From the NCBI GenBank assembly GCA_003135415.1, contig PLBP01000040.1, positions 160-64,159 of the forward strand: a stretch of 64,000 nucleotides of DNA, given 5' to 3'. Below the pieces are notes generated by a model, which ran no database searches, had not been told where the DNA came from, and saw nothing but the letters and a program-made list of their open reading frames with translations. This DNA is from Hyphomicrobiales bacterium (GTDB lineage: Bacteria > Pseudomonadota > Alphaproteobacteria > Rhizobiales > Xanthobacteraceae). Of the stretch, positions 501 to 59,629 are shown piece by piece. The stretch's first letter is position 1; each line of letters begins with the position of its first letter. Both the position numbers and the translations under genes were made by a program.

Positions 501-544
501 ACACCCGGCGCTCCCGGAACCTCAAAAGGTAAAGCGAGAACATA

Positions 545-1297
545 ATGGCTTTGTTGGAAGTCAAGAATCTGCAAGTCGAAGCCGGCGGCAAGAAAATCCT
601 GAACGGCCTCGACCTCAGCGTGAACGTGGGCGAGGTGCACGCGATCATGGGACCGAACGGCTCGGGCAAGTCGACGTTTTCTTATGTGCTCGCCGGTAAG
701 CCAGGCTACAAGATCACCGGCGGCAGCGCGCGCTTCGAAGGCGAGGATTTGCTCGCCTTGGCGCCGGATGAACGCGCGGCGAAAGGGCTCTTTCTCGCCT
801 TTCAATATCCGCTCGAAATTCCCGGCGTCACCACGATGACGTTCCTGCGCACCGCCGTGAACGCGGTTCGCAAGAAGCGCGGCGAAGCGGAAATCTCGAC
901 CCCTGATTTCTTGCGCTTCGTGCGCGAAAAAGCGGCGGCACTCCACATCGATCTCGAGATGCTCAAGCGCGCGGTCAATGTCGGCTTTTCCGGCGGCGAG
1001 AAGAAGCGAAACGAAATCCTACAGATGGCGTTGCTCGAGCCCAAGCTCGGCGTGCTCGACGAGACCGATTCCGGCCTCGACATCGACGCGCTGAAGGTCG
1101 TCGCCGAGGGCGTCAACAAGTTGCGCTCGAAGAAGCGCGCGATCATCGTGATTACGCACTACCAGCGCCTTCTCGACCACATCGTGCCGGACATTGTGCA
1201 CGTGATGGCGAAGGGCAAGATCGTGCGCTCCGGTGGGCCCGAGCTCGCGCTCGAACTCGAAAAAAAGGGCTATGCCGCCTTCGAACAGGCGGCGTGA
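545..1297 (+). CDS. sufC: SufC, ATPase of the SUF Fe-S assembly complex
   Basis: This is a 250-residue ABC-type ATPase that drives conformational change in the SufBC2D scaffold; it is cytosolic and not a transporter. Walker A GPNGSGKST is at residues 36-44, the Q-loop Gln near 87, the signature SGGEKKR at 149-155, the Walker B LGVLDE at 168-173 and the H-loop His near 205. The sequence LDETDSGLDID after Walker B is characteristic of SufC rather than of transporter ATPases. Length is normal. It lies 44 bp after sufB and only 4 bp before sufD, consistent with one operon. Confidence 0.97.
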   Translation: MALLEVKNLQVEAGGKKILNGLDLSVNVGEVHAIMGPNGSGKSTFSYVLAGKPGYKITGGSARFEGEDLLALAPDERAAKGLFLAFQYPLEIPGVTTMTFLRTAVNAVRKKRGEAEISTPDFLRFVREKAAALHIDLEMLKRAVNVGFSGGEKKRNEILQMALLEPKLGVLDETDSGLDIDALKVVAEGVNKLRSKKRAIIVITHYQRLLDHIVPDIVHVMAKGKIVRSGGPELALELEKKGYAAFEQAA

Positions 1298-1301
1298 TGC
1301 C

Positions 1302-2630
1302 ATGAATGCCGAAGTAAAGCCGATCCGCACGCCCGCCGAGCAGGCGCTTGCCGCCGCGATCGAGACCGCGCGCGCGAAATTTTCAAGCGCGAAGCCAGTC
1401 GCAAAGTTGCGCGAGAAGGCGGCGATGTCCTTCCTCGAAAGCGGACTGCCGCATCGGCGGATCGAGGAATGGAAATACACGGATCTCCGCGCGCTGATGC
1501 GCGAAGCCGCACCCCTTGCGCCGCCGCCGGACGCAGCCGCGATCAAGGCGGCGAAGACGCTTGATCCGTTTCCGGGCATCGAAGCGCGCCGGCTCGTGCT
1601 CGTGAACGGCACGTTCGTGCCGGAGCTCTCCGATCTGAAGGCACTGGAAGCGGGGCTCACCATCCTTCCGCTCGCGCGTGCGCTCGCCGAGGGTCACAAG
1701 CTGACCGGGAAAATCGGCGCGATCGTGCCCGATACTTACGATGCGGCACTCGCGCTCAATACGGCCTTTCTCAATGACGGCATCATCATCGCGCTTGAAA
1801 AAGACGCGAAGACCGAAAAGCCGATCCACATCATTCATTGCAATGTCGGCAAGTCTCCCGTTGCTACCTTTGCGCGCGCGCTTATTTTGCTCGGAGCATC
1901 GGCGCGCGCGCACATCATTGAGAGCTTCGTCGGTCCAGACGGCGTCGGCTATCAGGCGAATAGCGCGCTAGAGCTTCATGCGGGCGACGACAGCAAGCTC
2001 GATTTCGTCCGCCTGCAGGCCGAGGGCGACACCGCGCTTCACCTCGCAACGCTGCTCGCCGAGATCGGCGCGCGGGTGAAATTCTCGCTACATCCGGTCA
2101 CAATGGGTGCGGCACTCTCACGCTTCAGCGTTCTCCTGCGTTTTGCCGGTGCCGGCACCGAAGGAAAGCTCGCCGCCGCCAATCTACTGCGCGGCCGCCA
2201 GCACGCCGACACGACCCTCGTCGTCGATCACGCGGCACCTGGCTGTTCGAGCCGCGAGCTCAATAAATCGGCGCTCGACGGTGCAAGCCGCGGCATCTTC
2301 CAGGGCAAGATCATCGTCCGCCACGGCGCGCAGAAAACCGACGCCAGGATGGCGACGCATGCACTTTTGCTAAGCGACAATGCCGAGTCCGACAACAAGC
2401 CCGAGCTCGAAATCTTCGCCGACGACGTGCAATGCGGTCACGGCGCGACTTCTGGCGCGCTCGACGAAACCCTTCTGTTTTATTTTTTGGCGCGCGGCAT
2501 TCCGCGCGAACAGGCGGAGGCGCTGCTCATTCAATCCTTCGTTGGGGAAGCGATCGAGACGATCGCCCATGATGGCCTCCGCGAAGCGCTGATGGAGCGC
2601 GCTTCCAATTGGCTGAAAGAGCGTGGGTGA
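1302..2630 (+). CDS. sufD: SufD, Fe-S cluster assembly scaffold subunit
   Basis: SufD is the SufB paralogue that completes the SufBC2D scaffold. From the ATG at 1302 it is 442 residues (starts MNAEVKPIRTP). The frame stays open upstream into sufC, but the ATG 4 bp after the sufC stop is the natural coupled start. The C-terminal third carries the family hallmark DDVQCGHGATSG followed by a helix with FLARGIPREQAE, as in SufB/SufD proteins. It is followed by sufS after 9 bp. Confidence 0.95.
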   Translation: MNAEVKPIRTPAEQALAAAIETARAKFSSAKPVAKLREKAAMSFLESGLPHRRIEEWKYTDLRALMREAAPLAPPPDAAAIKAAKTLDPFPGIEARRLVLVNGTFVPELSDLKALEAGLTILPLARALAEGHKLTGKIGAIVPDTYDAALALNTAFLNDGIIIALEKDAKTEKPIHIIHCNVGKSPVATFARALILLGASARAHIIESFVGPDGVGYQANSALELHAGDDSKLDFVRLQAEGDTALHLATLLAEIGARVKFSLHPVTMGAALSRFSVLLRFAGAGTEGKLAAANLLRGRQHADTTLVVDHAAPGCSSRELNKSALDGASRGIFQGKIIVRHGAQKTDARMATHALLLSDNAESDNKPELEIFADDVQCGHGATSGALDETLLFYFLARGIPREQAEALLIQSFVGEAIETIAHDGLREALMERASNWLKERG

Positions 2631-42551: not shown

Positions 42552-42627
42552 GGCCCCGTAGCTCAGGGGATAGAGCAACAGCCTTCTAAGCTGTGGGTCG
42601 CAGGTTCGAATCCTGCCGGGGTCGCCA
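42552..42627 (+). tRNA. tRNA-Arg (TCT), integration target
   Basis: Acceptor GGCCCCG pairs with CGGGGTC (one G-T), anticodon arm ACAGC-CTTCTAA-GCTGT with anticodon TCT, T-arm GCAGGTTCGAATCCTGC, discriminator G and encoded CCA. Its last 49 bases are repeated exactly at 59581-59629, so an element integrated in the 3' half and rebuilt the tRNA. Confidence 0.97.
42579..42627 (+). repeat. attL: 49-bp direct repeat within tRNA-Arg
   Basis: The 49 bases from CAGCCTTCTAAGCTG in the anticodon arm to the CCA end are identical to attR. This is the usual crossover region of tRNA-targeting tyrosine integrases. Confidence 0.95.
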
Positions 42628-49657: not shown

Positions 49658-49996
49658 CTATTTCCTTGGGGCGTTGGCCCGGAATGACGCAAGGTAATCA
49701 TCTGCCGAAACAAGGCGCGGCCATTTTTCCTCGAACATATGGAATGACATTGGCCTGCCTTCAAAGACGGCTTCCCACGAGTCCATTCCTCGCCACTCGC
49801 CTCTCATAAAAATCCGGCTTTCTCCGTTTGTCTCGATGACGACAGGACCATCTTCGACCTCCCAAAGTTGCATCGACGACAAGGGAGTTCCTCTCGTTTT
49901 CACGTCCATATTATTAATGACCTCCATTCGATCTGGAAGTTCATAGAGCCGAGGATCGAACGCTTCTTGCGTGGTGTCTCGTTTTCTAGTGCTCAT
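49658..49996 (-). CDS. hypothetical protein downstream of Tat-like ORF
   Basis: A 112-residue soluble protein: DPRLYELPDRMEVINNMDVK, then LWEVEDGPVVIETNGESRIF and WEAVFEGRPMSFHMFEEKWP. ATG 49996 lies inside the end of the upstream 62-residue ORF (11-bp overlap) and has GAGAGG in front, so the two are translationally coupled. No family recognised. Confidence 0.65.
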   Translation of the reverse strand: MSTRKRDTTQEAFDPRLYELPDRMEVINNMDVKTRGTPLSSMQLWEVEDGPVVIETNGESRIFMRGEWRGMDSWEAVFEGRPMSFHMFEEKWPRLVSADDYLASFRANAPRK

Positions 49997-50174
49997 TTTG
50001 CCTCTCTTTCATCGATGGGGTGAAACGTCTCGCGCATTGACAATCAATCCGTAGCCGATCAACAAATCCGAGATAGCTCCGCTCGATTGGCATGAGCGTT
50101 GCGGCGCGCCCGATGAACGGCGCATATGCGAACGCAGCCCAGAGATCGATCAGAAATTTGCGGCGGCTAGACAT
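49986..50174 (-). CDS. 62-residue protein with Tat-like N-terminus
   Basis: It starts SSRRKFLIDLWAAFAYAPFI, which fits the twin-arginine consensus (S/T)RRxFL followed by a short hydrophobic stretch. The rest is basic with two Cys (DCQCARR). Its Shine-Dalgarno sequence GAGGG is the 3' arm of a terminator hairpin (50176-50209), so expression is probably controlled by that leader. It overlaps the next gene by 11 bp. Confidence 0.55.
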   Translation of the reverse strand: MSSRRKFLIDLWAAFAYAPFIGRAATLMPIERSYLGFVDRLRIDCQCARRFTPSMKERQNEH

Positions 50175-50175
50175 G

Positions 50176-50209
50176 AAAAAACCCTCACCGGATCGACCCG
50201 AGGAGGGTT
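50176..50209 (-). terminator. terminator hairpin whose 3' arm holds a ribosome site
   Basis: On the minus strand AACCCTC pairs with GAGGGTT around a 20-base loop and is followed by TTTTTC and then the ATG of the 62-residue ORF. The GAGGG of the stem is also the Shine-Dalgarno sequence for that ATG. Confidence 0.7.
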
Positions 50210-50320
50210 GGCACTCATGCGACCCGTTTAGTTGCCTTTTGGCCGCATCCCCTTGCGGGAACCACCTTGCCCGAGTATGGCAGGTTGGTGAGGGCGTTTG
50301 GCCCTACTCGTGATGCATTG
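50176..50320 (-). ncRNA. candidate structured leader RNA / attenuator
   Basis: Read on the minus strand, three features line up: hairpin AGGGC-CAAAC-GCCCT (50291-50305), hairpin TTCCC-GCAA-GGGGA with a GNRA loop (50248-50261), and the terminator at the end. The CCCTCACC just after hairpin 1 (50287-50294) is exactly complementary to GGTGAGGG in the terminator's 3' arm, so two exclusive folds are possible. A partial copy at 51152-51205 keeps hairpin 1 with a changed loop. No RNA family could be checked. Confidence 0.5.
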
Positions 50321-51023: not shown

Positions 51024-51212
51024 TTAAATCTGGACCGTGTTTTCGCGCGCGCGTTCTGCGATCTCCGATGCTGATCGAAGGCTTTCGCTTTTTTCAAACT
51101 TCGGTTCAATTCCGTTGGCGCGGAGAAAATTGAGAATCAAATCACTTCGGATTGCGACCCGAGCAGGCAGGTTGGCGAGGGTTGTCAGCCCTACTCTTGA
51201 TGCACAACTCAT
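51024..51212 (-). CDS. doubtful 62-residue ORF over a truncated leader copy
   Basis: The first 20 codons lie over the partial copy of the leader RNA (51152-51205) and there is no ribosome site, so that part is probably not coding. The rest (SDLILNFLRANGIEPKFEKS, SASEIAERAREN) is protein-like and might start at an internal TTG. Kept at low confidence. Confidence 0.25.
   Translation of the reverse strand: MSCASRVGLTTLANLPARVAIRSDLILNFLRANGIEPKFEKSESLRSASEIAERARENTVQI
51152..51205 (-). repeat. partial second copy of the 50.3-kb leader element
   Basis: About 52 bp matching 50268-50319: both contain GCAGGTTGG(T/C)GAGGG and CCCTACTC(G/T)TGATGCA on the plus strand. The copy stops before the GNRA hairpin and terminator. 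It lies in the otherwise empty 50897-51286 stretch. Confidence 0.7.
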
Positions 51213-53401: not shown

Positions 53402-54889
53402 TCAGAACATTCGGTGAGGATCGTGCGATCCAGAAACCCCCTCCGTTTGTTGCTGCATTTCGGATCGATAGATGTAGTCGCCCATCGGAATGTTAATCGG
53501 ATTACCGATGTCGATTTCAGCGATGACATTCGGCTTCGCCAATAGCAGCGCGCCTGCCACCGCATTCGCGACGTCGTCATGCGCACCGGGCCGATGATCG
53601 ATAGAGTCCTTGCCGCCGCGCGCCGTGCGTCGCTCAAGTCCGCAGAACTGCGTAAGCAGTCGAGGATCGTCGAGCAGATCAACACGCCGAGAGTTGATGG
53701 CAGGAAGCACCGACAAATAAATTTCAGATTTAACCTTGTCGGCTGCGAGGTATTCTATCCGCTGCTTACGGAGCAATTCGCGTGGAAATTCGCCGCCGTA
53801 CCTGTCGCCTCGGACCGTGCCGATGCGATAATTTTTCAACACATCGGCAAACTCGCTCAAAACGGCCTCGGGTGAGAACGGCGGCTTGCGCTCACGCACA
53901 CAGTCGAGAACTGTAATATTATTTTCAAGATGCGCGACGGCCATCGTCATGCTGTCCGACGAACCGCCCGAAGGATCAACAAAGCCGACATAGCGAACAT
54001 CTGAAAGCGGCGAACGCTCGAACACGCCGCGACTGACACAGGCCTCGACGGCCTCTCGCGCCACGAATGCCTGAACATCTCTCCGAAACTCCGCGAGATA
54101 TTCCGCGCTCGCCGAAGCAGGATCGCGTTCCATTGCGGCGTCAACTGTCGCCTGCGGGAAGGTTGGGTTCATCGTCCGCGTTGGCGCGTGCCAGACGAGA
54201 ACCGACGCATCATCCTGCGAGTGATAGCGACGCCAAGCGTCATAGAGTGCACCGTTCTGCGCGTAAGGCGAGGACGCGCACAACAACATCGCGCCGGGTA
54301 AGGTGCCAAGGCCGGGACGAAGCGCGTCGAGGATTTGATAATCCGGCTCGGCAGCATCATCGCTGCGCCAGAAGGCGATTTCGTCGCAAAGCACCGCCGC
54401 TAAGGTGTAGCCGCGCGTGGTTCGATACGATGCCACCGCGATCTCGATTGAAACGCCGTTGCTCAAGTCGATGGCTTCTGCCGCTTCACGCTCGATCAGT
54501 GGTGCGAGCATTGGAATGGAAAGGAGTCCTCTTACGTAGCGAAAAATGACGCGGGCTTGTTTTCGATCAGTCGCGATCACCATGATCGTCGCCCGTTCGC
54601 CCAGTGCGAGATGCGGTCGCCATTCGCGAAAGCAAGCGAGAAACACGGCCACGATTGCCAACACGAAACTCTTGCCAGCACGTCTGCCGCAGACGAGCCA
54701 TGCCTCGGTGAAAGGGGCCTCAGGAAGCGCACCGCGACCCGTACATGCGCGAAACACGTCCGCCTCGGTGTCGGACATAGGCAGCGCGAACAACGCGCAC
54801 AGGAAGGCTCGCCATGCAGACCACGTTGTCGGATCGCGAAGCGCACCGCCGAATAGCTTCGCGTCCGCGATGGCGTCGATGATCGTCAT
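53402..54889 (-). CDS. phage terminase large subunit
   Basis: A 495-residue DNA-packaging motor. ATPase: Walker A CGRRAGKSF (67-75), Walker B AVLCDE (165-170), coupling motif CASS (204-207). Nuclease: D305 in VGFVDPSGG, D362 in GDRYGGE and D438/D439 in GAHDDVANAV, the RNase-H-like metal ligands. All key residues appear intact. The start overlaps the small-subunit stop (ATGA). In the absence of capsid genes it may redirect DNA into a helper phage's heads. Confidence 0.9.
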   Translation of the reverse strand: MTIIDAIADAKLFGGALRDPTTWSAWRAFLCALFALPMSDTEADVFRACTGRGALPEAPFTEAWLVCGRRAGKSFVLAIVAVFLACFREWRPHLALGERATIMVIATDRKQARVIFRYVRGLLSIPMLAPLIEREAAEAIDLSNGVSIEIAVASYRTTRGYTLAAVLCDEIAFWRSDDAAEPDYQILDALRPGLGTLPGAMLLCASSPYAQNGALYDAWRRYHSQDDASVLVWHAPTRTMNPTFPQATVDAAMERDPASASAEYLAEFRRDVQAFVAREAVEACVSRGVFERSPLSDVRYVGFVDPSGGSSDSMTMAVAHLENNITVLDCVRERKPPFSPEAVLSEFADVLKNYRIGTVRGDRYGGEFPRELLRKQRIEYLAADKVKSEIYLSVLPAINSRRVDLLDDPRLLTQFCGLERRTARGGKDSIDHRPGAHDDVANAVAGALLLAKPNVIAEIDIGNPINIPMGDYIYRSEMQQQTEGVSGSHDPHRMF

Positions 54890-55644: not shown

Positions 55645-55648
55645 TCAC
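55565..55648. repeat. nested inverted repeat with five GTGACG hexamers
   Basis: Outer arms GTGACGCATGTGACG (55565-55579) and CGTCACATGCGTCAC (55634-55648) are perfectly complementary with a 54-bp spacer. Inner arms CGTCTCGC (55578-55585) and GCGAGACG (55609-55616) pair too. Five GTGACG/CGTCAC hexamers start at 55565, 55574, 55597, 55634 and 55643; those in each arm are 9 bp apart. The right arm covers the primase stop codon. Confidence 0.85.
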
Positions 55649-56994
55649 GGCGATCGAATGCGAAGGCCGATGAGGCCGCGACCAGCGTGAATCCGCTTCA
55701 GTGTGATTCCGCGATCTTCAAGGTTCTGAACGAAGCGTTTTTGACTGCCGACATATTCGCCCGCAGCGGTGGCCCAATTCTTCCACGAGGTGAAGAGGGT
55801 ACTAGTCTTTTCAAATGCGTTTGGATCGCGGTCGCAGCATTCGTCAATCCATGCGGCAGTGGCGTCCTCGCCTTCGAGGTAGGCAGTTGTCGCCGCCGTC
55901 ACCGCCTTGGGCGCGGCGAGGCCCTTCTTCTGCCATTCGATGCAGCCCTCGATCATCCGCGCTAAAATGCCCGGCCACTCGGCTTTGAGTTTTTCAGAAA
56001 GCTTATCATCGCGTTCCTCCACAGGGATCGTTACCGTGAAGGGGATAAGGTTGAATCGCCGCCTGATTGCTTCGTCCACGGACCGCAGGCCCGGCTTGTG
56101 GTTTCCGGCGATCAGAAGCTTGAACTGCGGCATAAACTCGAAGAAGTCCTGTCGCATGAACCTCGCCGCAACCTTGTCGCCGCCAGTGAGACTTTTGATC
56201 TTGCTTTCCGCCCAGCGCCGCCCTTCTTCGGTTTCTGCTGCTGTGACTAATCGAGCACCGCGCAAGCGCGCAACGTCGGTTGGATGCCGCTCGCTTTTCG
56301 AATCGGTGAAGGTCTCGATTGGCGCTGTGCAGTGGTAGTCGCCCATGCAGCCGGTGTTAGCGTTGTGGAAGGTCGTCTTGCCATTCGCGCCGGTGCCATA
56401 AAGAAAGAAAAGGGCATGTTCGGTCGTCGATCCAGTCAATGCGTAGCCGGACATCCGCTGCAAGTAAGAGATAAGTTCGGTGTCGCCGTTCGTGACTCGA
56501 TCGAGAAAGCTTTGCCAATTCGGCGTTGGAACCGAAGCATCCGGCGCGACCGCGGTGATCTTCGTCATGTAGTCGTCGGACCGATGCGGTCGAACTTTCC
56601 CGGTGCGCAAGTCCACCACACCTCCCGGCGTGTTCAGCAACCATGGGTCAGCGTCCCACTGATCGGCAGTAGCGGCGAGACGACGATCAGAACGTGCAAG
56701 GCGCTCGACGGCCGCAATCGTTTTGGCGCTCGCCAAGACCATTGCGAGTTTCTTCTTGTTGCATTCAGCCGACGCAGCGCGACAGATTTTTCGTGCGCGA
56801 TTATAGGCATCTAACGTGTCGTCGAATTTCCAGCGCGCACCGTCCCATGAAAGCCAGCGGCCCCAAGTCGCGACGTAGCGAAGATCGGCCGCATGAGTTT
56901 CGGCGAAGCGTAACGCAAGCGCTTCATCACTGAACGCAGGTGGGCGTGATTCATCCGGTTCCGTTTGGTTCGAAGGAAGGATTGGAACCGTCAT
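55645..56994 (-). CDS. P4-family phage/plasmid primase-helicase (D5-like)
   Basis: A 449-residue protein from ATG 56994. A D5_N region (WLLNTPGGVVDLRTGKVRPH, then VTNGDTELISYLQRMSGYAL) leads into an SF3 helicase: Walker A GTGANGKT (200-207), B-type block TAAETEEGRRWAES, and motif LLIAGNHKPGLRSVDEAIRR with RRFNLIPF. A separate archaeo-eukaryotic primase domain is not evident at the N-terminus, so it may be mainly the helicase half. It should initiate replication of the excised element, perhaps at the GTGACG repeats next to its stop. Confidence 0.88.
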   Translation of the reverse strand: MTVPILPSNQTEPDESRPPAFSDEALALRFAETHAADLRYVATWGRWLSWDGARWKFDDTLDAYNRARKICRAASAECNKKKLAMVLASAKTIAAVERLARSDRRLAATADQWDADPWLLNTPGGVVDLRTGKVRPHRSDDYMTKITAVAPDASVPTPNWQSFLDRVTNGDTELISYLQRMSGYALTGSTTEHALFFLYGTGANGKTTFHNANTGCMGDYHCTAPIETFTDSKSERHPTDVARLRGARLVTAAETEEGRRWAESKIKSLTGGDKVAARFMRQDFFEFMPQFKLLIAGNHKPGLRSVDEAIRRRFNLIPFTVTIPVEERDDKLSEKLKAEWPGILARMIEGCIEWQKKGLAAPKAVTAATTAYLEGEDATAAWIDECCDRDPNAFEKTSTLFTSWKNWATAAGEYVGSQKRFVQNLEDRGITLKRIHAGRGLIGLRIRSP

Positions 56995-57043
56995 TGATCG
57001 ATCTCTCAAGCATTAAACGCGCATCGGTGACATTGTCGTTGGC

Positions 57044-57813: not shown

Positions 57814-57872
57814 GTCAACAAGCGTGTGCGCTATTAAATATCGCCAGTGATTGACAGCCATTGGGGTTCAAT

Positions 57873-57891
57873 GAGGGGATAATGGCCAGTA
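57873..57891 (+). promoter_or_regulatory. partial operator match over the integrase ribosome site
   Basis: GAGGGGATAATGGCCAGTA matches operator 1 read on the minus strand (AAAGGGATAATGGCCCTTT) at 14 of 19 positions, including an unbroken GGGATAATGGCC. It covers the Shine-Dalgarno sequence and start codon of the integrase. Confidence 0.35.
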
Positions 57892-59051
57892 TACGAAAGC
57901 GCCATTGGATTTCTCGTCATGGGGAGCGAACAGCTTGGGTCGTCGATTACTTCGACCAAGCCGGAAAGCGGCATCTAAGGTCGTTTAAGACGCGCAAGGA
58001 GGCTGACAATTGGAAGGCTACCGCCCTGTTCGAGGTCAAGCAGGGGACGCATACTTCCGCCAGTGCGAGCATCACGGTGATCGATTGTTGGGAGCGTTGG
58101 CTCGATCATTGCCGCGCTGAGGGGTTGGAATTCGGCACGATCAAGCAAAGAGATCAGCATCTCAAGCTTCACGTCACGCCTTTTATAGGCCGCGAGAAGC
58201 TTTCTAATCTAACGACGCTACACGTCCATCAGTTTGATGCCGAGCTTCGCGCGAAAGGTCGATCCGGCTCAATGCGGCGCAAAGTCCTTTCCAACCTGAA
58301 AACTTTACTCACATTTGCACAGACGCAAGGACTTGTGGCGCAGAATGTCGCCCGCGCCATTCGTTTGAAAAATGAGGATCGTCACAAGGCAACTGGACCA
58401 TTGCGTGAGAGCGTGGACTTTCCGTCTAAAGCAGAGTTGAGAATACTGATCGAGAAGGCGAGTGGGCGCTGGCGCCCATTTCTGCTTGCCGCGATATTCA
58501 CCGGAATGCGCGCAAGCGAGCTTCGCGGCCTTTCATGGAACGACGTCGATCTCGAAGCTGGATTTATTCATGTCCGGCAGAGGGCCGACGCATGGAAAAA
58601 AATGGGTCCGCCGAAATCGAAATGCGGCAAGCGAGATATACCGCTCGCTCCAATCGTAGTGAACGAGCTCACTCGGTGGAAGAAGAAATGCCCTGCCGGA
58701 AAGCTCAATCTCGTGTTCCCGAATGGTGCGGGTAACGTCGAAAGCATGTCAAACATCTGGAAGCGGTTCTGGTCACCGCATCAGATAGCCTGTGGTGCGA
58801 GTGAGGACACTGGCAAAGTCGATGGTGAGAGTAAGCCGATCTTTCGGGCGAAATACGGTTTCCACATGCTCCGGCATGCCGCTGCGAGCCTATTCATTGC
58901 GCACCTTGGCTGGACGCCAAAACGCGTTCAAACTGTCATGGGACATTCAAGTATTGCGATGACATTCGATTTATACGGGCATCTCTTCGAGGATCACGAT
59001 GCCGATCGCGAGGCGATGAAGAAGATCGAGGCGGCAGTTATCGCCGCCTAA
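57882..59051 (+). CDS. int: tyrosine recombinase / integrase
   Basis: A 389-residue phage-type integrase that should recombine attP with the tRNA-Arg attB. An N-terminal arm-binding domain (ASIRKRHWISRHGERTAWVV) and SAM-like core-binding domain (DCWERWLDHCRAEGLE) precede the catalytic domain: R210 (TGMRASELRGLSW), H328-x2-R331 (HMLRHAAAS), H355 (GHSSIAM) and the nucleophile Y365 (FDLYGHLF). All catalytic residues are present. ATG 57882 with GAGGGG in front is preferred over the upstream ATG. It lies 530 bp from attR. Confidence 0.95.
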   Translation: MASIRKRHWISRHGERTAWVVDYFDQAGKRHLRSFKTRKEADNWKATALFEVKQGTHTSASASITVIDCWERWLDHCRAEGLEFGTIKQRDQHLKLHVTPFIGREKLSNLTTLHVHQFDAELRAKGRSGSMRRKVLSNLKTLLTFAQTQGLVAQNVARAIRLKNEDRHKATGPLRESVDFPSKAELRILIEKASGRWRPFLLAAIFTGMRASELRGLSWNDVDLEAGFIHVRQRADAWKKMGPPKSKCGKRDIPLAPIVVNELTRWKKKCPAGKLNLVFPNGAGNVESMSNIWKRFWSPHQIACGASEDTGKVDGESKPIFRAKYGFHMLRHAAASLFIAHLGWTPKRVQTVMGHSSIAMTFDLYGHLFEDHDADREAMKKIEAAVIAA

Positions 59052-59580: not shown

Positions 59581-59629
59581 CAGCCTTCTAAGCTGTGGGT
59601 CGCAGGTTCGAATCCTGCCGGGGTCGCCA
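59581..59629 (+). repeat. attR: 49-bp copy of the tRNA-Arg 3' half
   Basis: Identical over 49 bases to 42579-42627, ending with the CCA. It no longer has a tRNA 5' half and is not a functional tRNA. Beyond the repeat both ends share TCAA(T/C)GACTTAG a few bases on. Confidence 0.95.

Follow-up and report, generated by a model that had tools for sequence, protein, structure and literature searches.

That SAM riboswitches regulate methionine metabolism is textbook knowledge, and the SAM-I, SAM-IV and SAM-I/IV classes belong to the same clan and share a ligand core. SAM-I/SAM-IV variants (RF01725) occur typically in metagenome sequences, with entries from several phyla and from marine samples, and share many structural features with SAM-I and SAM-IV but have a P2 with no internal loop (Weinberg et al. 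2010, PMC2864571); SAM-I-IV is also listed among the SAM classes in PMC12452182. In riboswitches that work by strand exchange, the switching sequence lies most commonly in the first helix, according to a review (PMC10907184), whereas the sequence evidence presented here for SAM-I/IV points to P2. A riboswitch scan of pelagimyophages is reported to have found none (PMC7029224), and our search of titles and abstract openings, mostly of non-subscription literature, returned no published report of a SAM-I/IV riboswitch on a mobile element.

We analyzed a 64-kb stretch of a Hyphomicrobiales genome (the window), which carries on its minus strand a leader RNA belonging to this class. The leader resembles RF01725 by its full-length model match, its near-invariant core and its P2 without internal loop, and relatives in the same bacterial family precede metA. 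It differs in that the gene downstream encodes a small phage-type protein inside a mobile element and no recognised methionine or SAM enzyme. We consider it probable (roughly 0.8) that this SAM-I/IV riboswitch serves as the OFF switch of a mobile-element cassette made up of two small genes. What is unusual here is the cargo gene, the mobile setting and the sequence evidence for strand exchange through P2 in the class; the riboswitch class itself is known.

A SAM-I/IV aptamer in the leader

The whole window was scanned against all 4227 Rfam families. Four matches reached the gathering threshold, three tRNAs and RF01725, the latter with 71.5 bits against a cut-off of 41.1 (E 6.2e-10) and aligned over model positions 1-99 of 99. 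Around the leader, RF01725 was the only listed match up to E 5, one overlapping match of the same clan being omitted by the program. The first-pass annotation, made from the letters alone, had proposed a riboswitch-type leader RNA with a terminator-like hairpin holding the Shine-Dalgarno sequence, which proved right in kind, and the Infernal search against Rfam that it had suggested returned the family, SAM-I/IV. The C4 antisense RNA (RF01695) that it had also named for this search was rejected, as it is not among the four matches of the window.

Inspection of the aptamer agrees with this assignment. The window copy keeps 39 of the 40 near-invariant class columns (at least 95% conserved in an alignment of 152 sequences, the window copy and 151 others), and the single missed column is a C to U change in the P3 loop, where a wobble pair is still possible. 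The SAM-I/IV core pattern matched once in the window and in none of 100 shuffles. When P2 is aligned to that of RF01725, a single bulged base is the only irregularity and there is no internal loop, a criterion taken from PMC2864571. Judged by these sequence features, the leader RNA is a SAM-I/IV riboswitch, a known class, and its aptamer is established as such; SAM binding and regulation by it are putative.

A pseudoknot between the P3 loop and the 3' tail is expected in the SAM-I/IV class. In this copy the candidate pairing is ACUCG/CGGGU (p 0.22). For the class, the own-partner score was 13.0 against a permuted maximum of 12.0 (5000 permutations), with only 10 of 152 leaders at p<=0.05 against shuffles.

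Leader anatomy and predicted expression platform

The minus-strand elements listed in the first-pass annotation (two hairpins, a T-tailed hairpin, a complementarity and a GAGGG sequence) were all found in place (Table 1). The AGGGC/GCCCT hairpin (50305-50291) forms part of P2, and P3, with its conserved CCAACCTGC...GCAAGGTGG core, sits between P2 and the linker hairpin, which reads CCC-GCAA-GGG. On the 3' side of the aptamer the order is CAACCCTCCTCGG-loop-CCGGTGAGGG-TTTTTT-C-ATG (50210-50172), with the T-run (U6) at 50181-50176, directly after the hairpin, and GAGGG 7 nt from the ATG at 50174.

Table 1. Features of the leader, the cassette and the mobile element, in window positions.
Feature	Position	Strand	Evidence
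Left attachment site, 3' part of tRNA-Arg(TCT) 42552-42627	42579..42627	+	49-bp identical repeat
112-aa ORF overlapping the end of the 62-aa ORF, second cassette gene	49658..49996	-	paralog in L001
62-aa ORF with RR..AP.I.RA..LMP leader, likely regulated gene	49986..50174	-	alignment; paralog dN/dS
Terminator-like hairpin holding the Shine-Dalgarno sequence, then U-run; predicted expression platform	50180..50209	-	sequence; MFE folds
GAGGG, Shine-Dalgarno sequence of the 62-codon ORF	50182..50186	-	sequence
SAM-I/IV aptamer RF01725	50218..50321	-	Rfam match; near-invariant columns
GNRA-capped hairpin in the variable P3-P1 linker	50250..50259	-	sequence; RF01725 insert region
CCCTCACC, antiterminator strand of the first-pass annotation, complementary to 50189-50182	50287..50294	-	exact in this copy
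P2 hairpin of the aptamer, containing the AGGGC/GCCCT hairpin of the first-pass annotation	50290..50307	-	Rfam alignment
J1/2 and P2 5' strand CGAGTAGGG, inferred switching sequence	50302..50310	-	8/9 pairs with 50207-50199
Decayed SAM-I/IV remnant (partial copy of the first-pass annotation)	51101..51208	-	R1 23.1 bits, E 0.0067
Terminase large subunit-like protein	53402..54889	-	PF03237 E 5.3e-7; phrog_2 E 1.4e-25
P4-family primase/helicase	55645..57009	-	PF08706 E 4.3e-36; TIGR01613 330.6 bits, cut-off 108.7
Tyrosine integrase, adjoining the right end	57861..59051	+	PF00589 E 2.3e-18; phrog_1 E 3.8e-67
Right attachment site, 49-bp duplicate of the tRNA-Arg 3' part	59581..59629	+	identical repeat

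MFE folds form the platform hairpin with GAGGG in its 3' arm and the U-run directly 5' of the start codon; P2, P3 and this hairpin are present in them and the native P1 is absent. The folding energy of the leader is modestly unusual (z -2.1, 5 of 200 shuffles folding equally well). A simple scan for consensus terminators did not list the platform hairpin, perhaps because of its internal mismatch. The hairpin holding the Shine-Dalgarno sequence is a predicted expression platform.

The strand forming the 5' arm of this hairpin, CCCTCCTCG (50207-50199), is also the candidate partner of CGAGTAGGG in the aptamer, a pairing that is not significant in the window copy alone (p 0.15). The OFF fold, with the platform hairpin, has -62.5 kcal/mol against -52.2 for the forced ON fold, and is therefore better by about 10 kcal/mol in a calculation without ligand or pseudoknot terms. 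Given this difference, either switching must be co-transcriptional or the leader would be mostly OFF.

An integrated element carries the cassette

The leader lies between two copies of the tRNA-Arg 3' part, in a 17.0-kb integrated element that could equally be satellite-like or a reduced prophage on the basis of its gene content. Its integration at tRNA-Arg is directly legible in the identical repeats. Besides the proteins of Table 1, the element encodes an SNase-family nuclease and small unknown proteins; among the element ORFs scanned there was no capsid or portal match, and one sub-threshold tail-collar match. The tRNA attachment site, the tyrosine integrase and the P4-family primase are shared with P4-like phage satellites, from which the element differs by its terminase-like protein. 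The host genome assembly has 2,995,077 bases in 41 contigs and is 95% complete.

A paralogous copy of the module, evident from alignment, is found on a second contig of the same genome (C27; locus L001). The two regions are 93% identical over 341 nt covering the riboswitch and the small ORF and 81% over 429 nt covering the second ORF, and the other similarity between them consists of four pieces of 47-57 nt, one of which is the remnant aptamer. The cassette seems, from these alignments, to move as a unit. In the C27 region, part of a tRNA-Glu is duplicated over 17 bp, and one ORF there is integrase-like by eye. In another genome of the family (G055; L107: 7771-9094), the riboswitch and the small ORF lie in a 1.3-kb stretch running from tRNA-Trp to its 20-bp partial duplicate, an arrangement like a minimal island. 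A third RF01725 copy of the window's own genome (L106: 14408-14517, plus strand) precedes an unrelated 125-aa ORF without a Pfam match; tRNA-Ser and, by eye, an integrase-like ORF lie in the same region.

The partial copy at 51.15 kb pointed out in the first-pass annotation is real and keeps P2, but does not look like a second working copy. It was scored by a model (R1) built from 29 SAM-I/IV aptamers including the window copy, whose RNAalifold structure missed part of P2 and which we used for scoring only; Rfam's own model left the region unreported at E up to 5. P1 5', P2 and P3 5' are intact. As the P3 3' strand and the remaining core are lost or unrecognisable, the segment looks like a decayed remnant by its sequence.

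Two small genes downstream of the riboswitch

The 62-aa ORF has RR at positions 4-5, followed by a hydrophobic stretch and AP.I.RA..LMP, a putatively Tat-like leader (resembling a twin-arginine signal). Eight residues are invariant over 10 aligned sequences, and searches of Pfam, PHROGs and NCBIfam gave no match to the ORF. Compared with its paralog behind the C27 riboswitch, the small ORF has dN 0.040 and dS 0.207 (45 codons), and the 112-aa ORF has dN 0.139 and dS 0.896 (109 codons) against its own paralog; given these ratios, both ORFs look like real genes. Large IMG/VR phage proteins, primase-like by eye, contain a stretch similar to part of the 112-aa ORF (FMRGEWRGM...), at 51% over 36 query residues in 4 loci.

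The riboswitch-protein association within the bacterial family

We looked for RF01725 in 296 genomes of the bacterial family and found it in 30 of them at 37 places, one below the cut-off. The next gene was read at 32 of these places, by eye from the N-termini (one metA and one lyase were confirmed with Pfam): metA at 15, a beta-eliminating lyase at 6, a protein of the RR-AP-LMP type at 5 and others at 6. Finding metA and the beta-eliminating lyase downstream in the same family is as expected of a SAM sensor. Two of the five RR-AP-LMP loci are the paralogs of the window's genome.

The small protein was then searched with two profiles, A2 built from 14 viral proteins only and A1 including riboswitch-linked members. 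At E<=1e-5, A2 matched 4 of the 296 family genomes (G000:C38, G055:C18, G168:C1 and G244:C155), and each of the four follows an RF01725 on the same strand at a distance of 37-70 nt; C27, with the other copy of the window's genome, gave no A2 match at this threshold. With A1 at E<=0.001, 20 of the 296 genomes matched, the five strong matches being the five riboswitch-linked members; the remaining ones were weak (E 1.4e-6 or worse), and all but one fall in frames of 205-462 codons. Among 397 genomes of the order, A2 had matches in 8. Five of these matches fall in frames of 405-480 codons and one is that of the window; the remaining two (G583 and G635) are smaller and have neither RF01725 nor another Rfam family nearby.

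Relatives of the L005 member are encoded at 65 viral loci in IMG/VR; APAIVRASSLMPVK is typical of them, and their C-termini vary. These small proteins share the RR..APAIVRASSLMPVK leader motif with the 62-aa ORF and differ in that RF01725 was absent from all 50 viral records tested among the 65; on this count and the results that follow, we rejected a general association of the riboswitch with phage members of the family. No Rfam family matched at gathering threshold in 37 sources (19 and 18), 35 of which are viral loci. The R1 model gave no match above 14.8 bits in 48 viral loci together with L286 and L287 (best viral E 1.9), nor in 17 further loci, 13 reached through A1 and 4 through the 112-aa ORF (best E 0.27). 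A tblastn search with two small-ORF relatives against 50,697 phage records found none, similar DNA was found in none of the phage records, and in plasmids a single match, about 79 bases long, came from Aestuarium zhoushanense. As all A2 matches of the family sit behind RF01725, with the two smaller order-level matches and the viral records tested lacking it, the riboswitch-protein link is, in the sequences searched, strong in this bacterial family and not general.

The C-termini that follow the RR-APAIVRASSLMPVK leader differ widely among viral loci (L063, L091 and others), and some look like tail-spike or tail-collar sequences by eye.

Complementarity between P2 and the platform across the class

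We asked whether the post-aptamer strand of SAM-I/IV leaders is complementary to the aptamer of the same leader. The leaders came from titled genome contigs (at least 118 stretches, chosen by DNA pattern rather than by Rfam), relatives of the window and viral contigs; 163 pattern matches gave 162 with enough flank and 152 after removal of near-duplicates. One pattern match with no RF01725 match (L099) was excluded from the column conservation, permutation, sub-segment and sliding-window tests. It was included in an initial segment test and in the shuffled-platform test, from the latter of which the window copy is absent as a near-duplicate of L001. Both the permuted-partner and the shuffled-platform tests used the whole 30-nt 5' region.

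Results showed that the post-aptamer strand scores higher with its own J1/2-P2-loop region (mean 23.9 over 152 leaders) than with permuted partners, for which the mean was 19.6 and the highest value in 5000 permutations 20.7. Control segments, P3 and the P3-P1 linker with P1 3', gave no own-partner excess (t 0.5 and -0.1). In the comparison with shuffled platforms, p<=0.05 was reached by 67 of the 152 leaders and p<=0.01 by 40. Leader by leader the picture is mixed: the own platform outscored 95% or more of the foreign ones for 29 of the 152 leaders, and the median percentile was 0.78. Among the leaders labelled by eye as mobile-element, viral or non-metabolic, 10 of 14 had p<=0.05, the exceptions being L005, L098, L101 and L111.

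The signal was located with a 14-nt sliding window, with starts counted from CCAACC. It gave z 9.4 at -20 and -16, 6.1 at -12 and 5.5 at -24; among the other 15 windows z was 2.3 (-28), -2.4 (+32) and -2.1 (+36), the rest being smaller, so that the own-partner excess peaks in the P2 5' strand and loop. An initial segment test with badly placed segments had p<=0.05 in 17/152 (P2 5') and 19/152 (P2 3'), and splitting into sub-segments weakened the signal (21/152 in the 5' segment, 14 in the P2 3' strand and 10 in the P1 3' strand). The P2 3' segment of the class scored 16.1 with its own partner, above the permuted maximum of 15.3. The sequences themselves vary between leaders and complementarity is retained, as in GGGCTGGCGC/GCGCCAGTCC, TTGGGGAATGACGCC/GGCGTCATCTCCCAA and GGGTCGACGC/GCGTCGACCC.

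This excess over permuted partners suggests, at the level of sequence, that SAM-I/IV leaders exchange strands through P2. Our literature search returned no published P2-switching model for SAM-I/IV in the texts covered. The class-wide complementarity offers a concrete, testable switching model for these riboswitches.

Proposed mechanism and alternative explanations

Considering the anatomy of the leader, we infer that SAM turns expression off. When SAM is plentiful, the aptamer would be stabilised and the P2 5' strand occupied; CCCTCCTCG would then pair with the GAGGG arm, and the resulting hairpin would terminate transcription at the U-run, immediately 5' of the start codon, and hide the Shine-Dalgarno sequence. 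When SAM is scarce, CCCTCCTCG would pair back onto CGAGTAGGG of J1/2-P2, the hairpin would not form, and the 62-aa protein would be made, perhaps with the overlapping 112-aa protein too. At low host SAM, the element would express a phage-type and possibly exported small protein.

The riboswitch could also have been carried in from elsewhere and have lost its function in the element, leaving the 62-aa ORF free of SAM regulation. With a decayed aptamer 0.8 kb upstream, decay of the window module is indeed possible; moreover, the switch pairing common in the class is weaker in this copy than in many relatives, and the C-terminus of the small ORF differs between the paralogs (62 versus 49 aa). We nevertheless judge this loss unlikely, considering that the near-invariant columns are kept in all but one case, that the small ORF has a dN/dS of about 0.2, that aptamer and small protein are paired at five loci in four genomes (two of the loci being paralogs in this genome), and that every family match of the viral-only profile sits behind RF01725. 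A reading as a non-riboswitch attenuator or a C4-like antisense RNA of a prophage would suit the phage-like context, but it appears very improbable when SAM-I-IV and tRNAs are the only families matching the window at gathering threshold and RF01725 stands alone among the matches listed near the leader.

Another arrangement was the switch of the first-pass annotation, in which CCCTCACC, on the P2 3' strand (50294-50287), and GGTGAGGG, in the Shine-Dalgarno arm (50189-50182), form an antiterminator mutually exclusive with the terminator. Here the pairing is as described: eight exact pairs, to which a G-T, a mismatch and three A-T pairs can be added, with p 0.015 against shuffled platforms in the window copy, and the P2 3' segment of the class is also in own-partner excess. 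As a general switch it does not hold, being mostly lost in the nearest paralog (L001), where five pairs (CCCTC/GAGGG) and one G-T remain, with a score of 14.5 against 24.5 for the P2 pairing. The class-wide signal also peaks further 5', and the CCCTCACC/GGTGAGGG pairing would keep the Shine-Dalgarno sequence paired, so that translation would not turn on. We regard this arrangement as improbable, somewhat more so than loss of function, and favor exchange between CGAGTAGGG and CCCTCCTCG under control of the SAM-I/IV aptamer.

A broader proposal, which we put forward tentatively and at a little less than even odds, is that mobile elements carried by Xanthobacteraceae-like bacteria captured SAM-I/IV as a sensor of host SAM releasing a phage-type small protein, and that the class switches through P2 and not P1. 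In such a capture, host SAM would stand for a methyl-donor pool that restriction-modification, phage methyltransferases or infection drain. If true, a SAM sensor placed over a phage-type small protein would give mobile DNA a direct reading of that pool.

Other SAM-I/IV leaders

Several other leaders of the class were observed in the course of this analysis. On two viral contigs, SAM-I/IV (L098: 11362-11467, minus strand; L102: 13652-13757, plus strand) precedes proteins of 134 and 124 aa, respectively, which are alike by eye and have no Pfam match. SAM-I/IV leaders also precede DUF3293 proteins in L103 (by Pfam) and L222 (by sequence likeness). A tandem of SAM-II and SAM-V has been reported (PMC11508383). 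On the viral contig IMGVR_UViG_3300043434_001186 (L100), SAM-I/IV (541-642, plus strand) is followed by SAM-V (725-793, plus strand) before a metK-like ORF (by eye). In a genome of the same bacterial family as the window (G193; L110), two SAM-I/IV aptamers lie in tandem (1469-1571 and 1658-1763, plus strand) before an ORF for a MoxR-like AAA ATPase.
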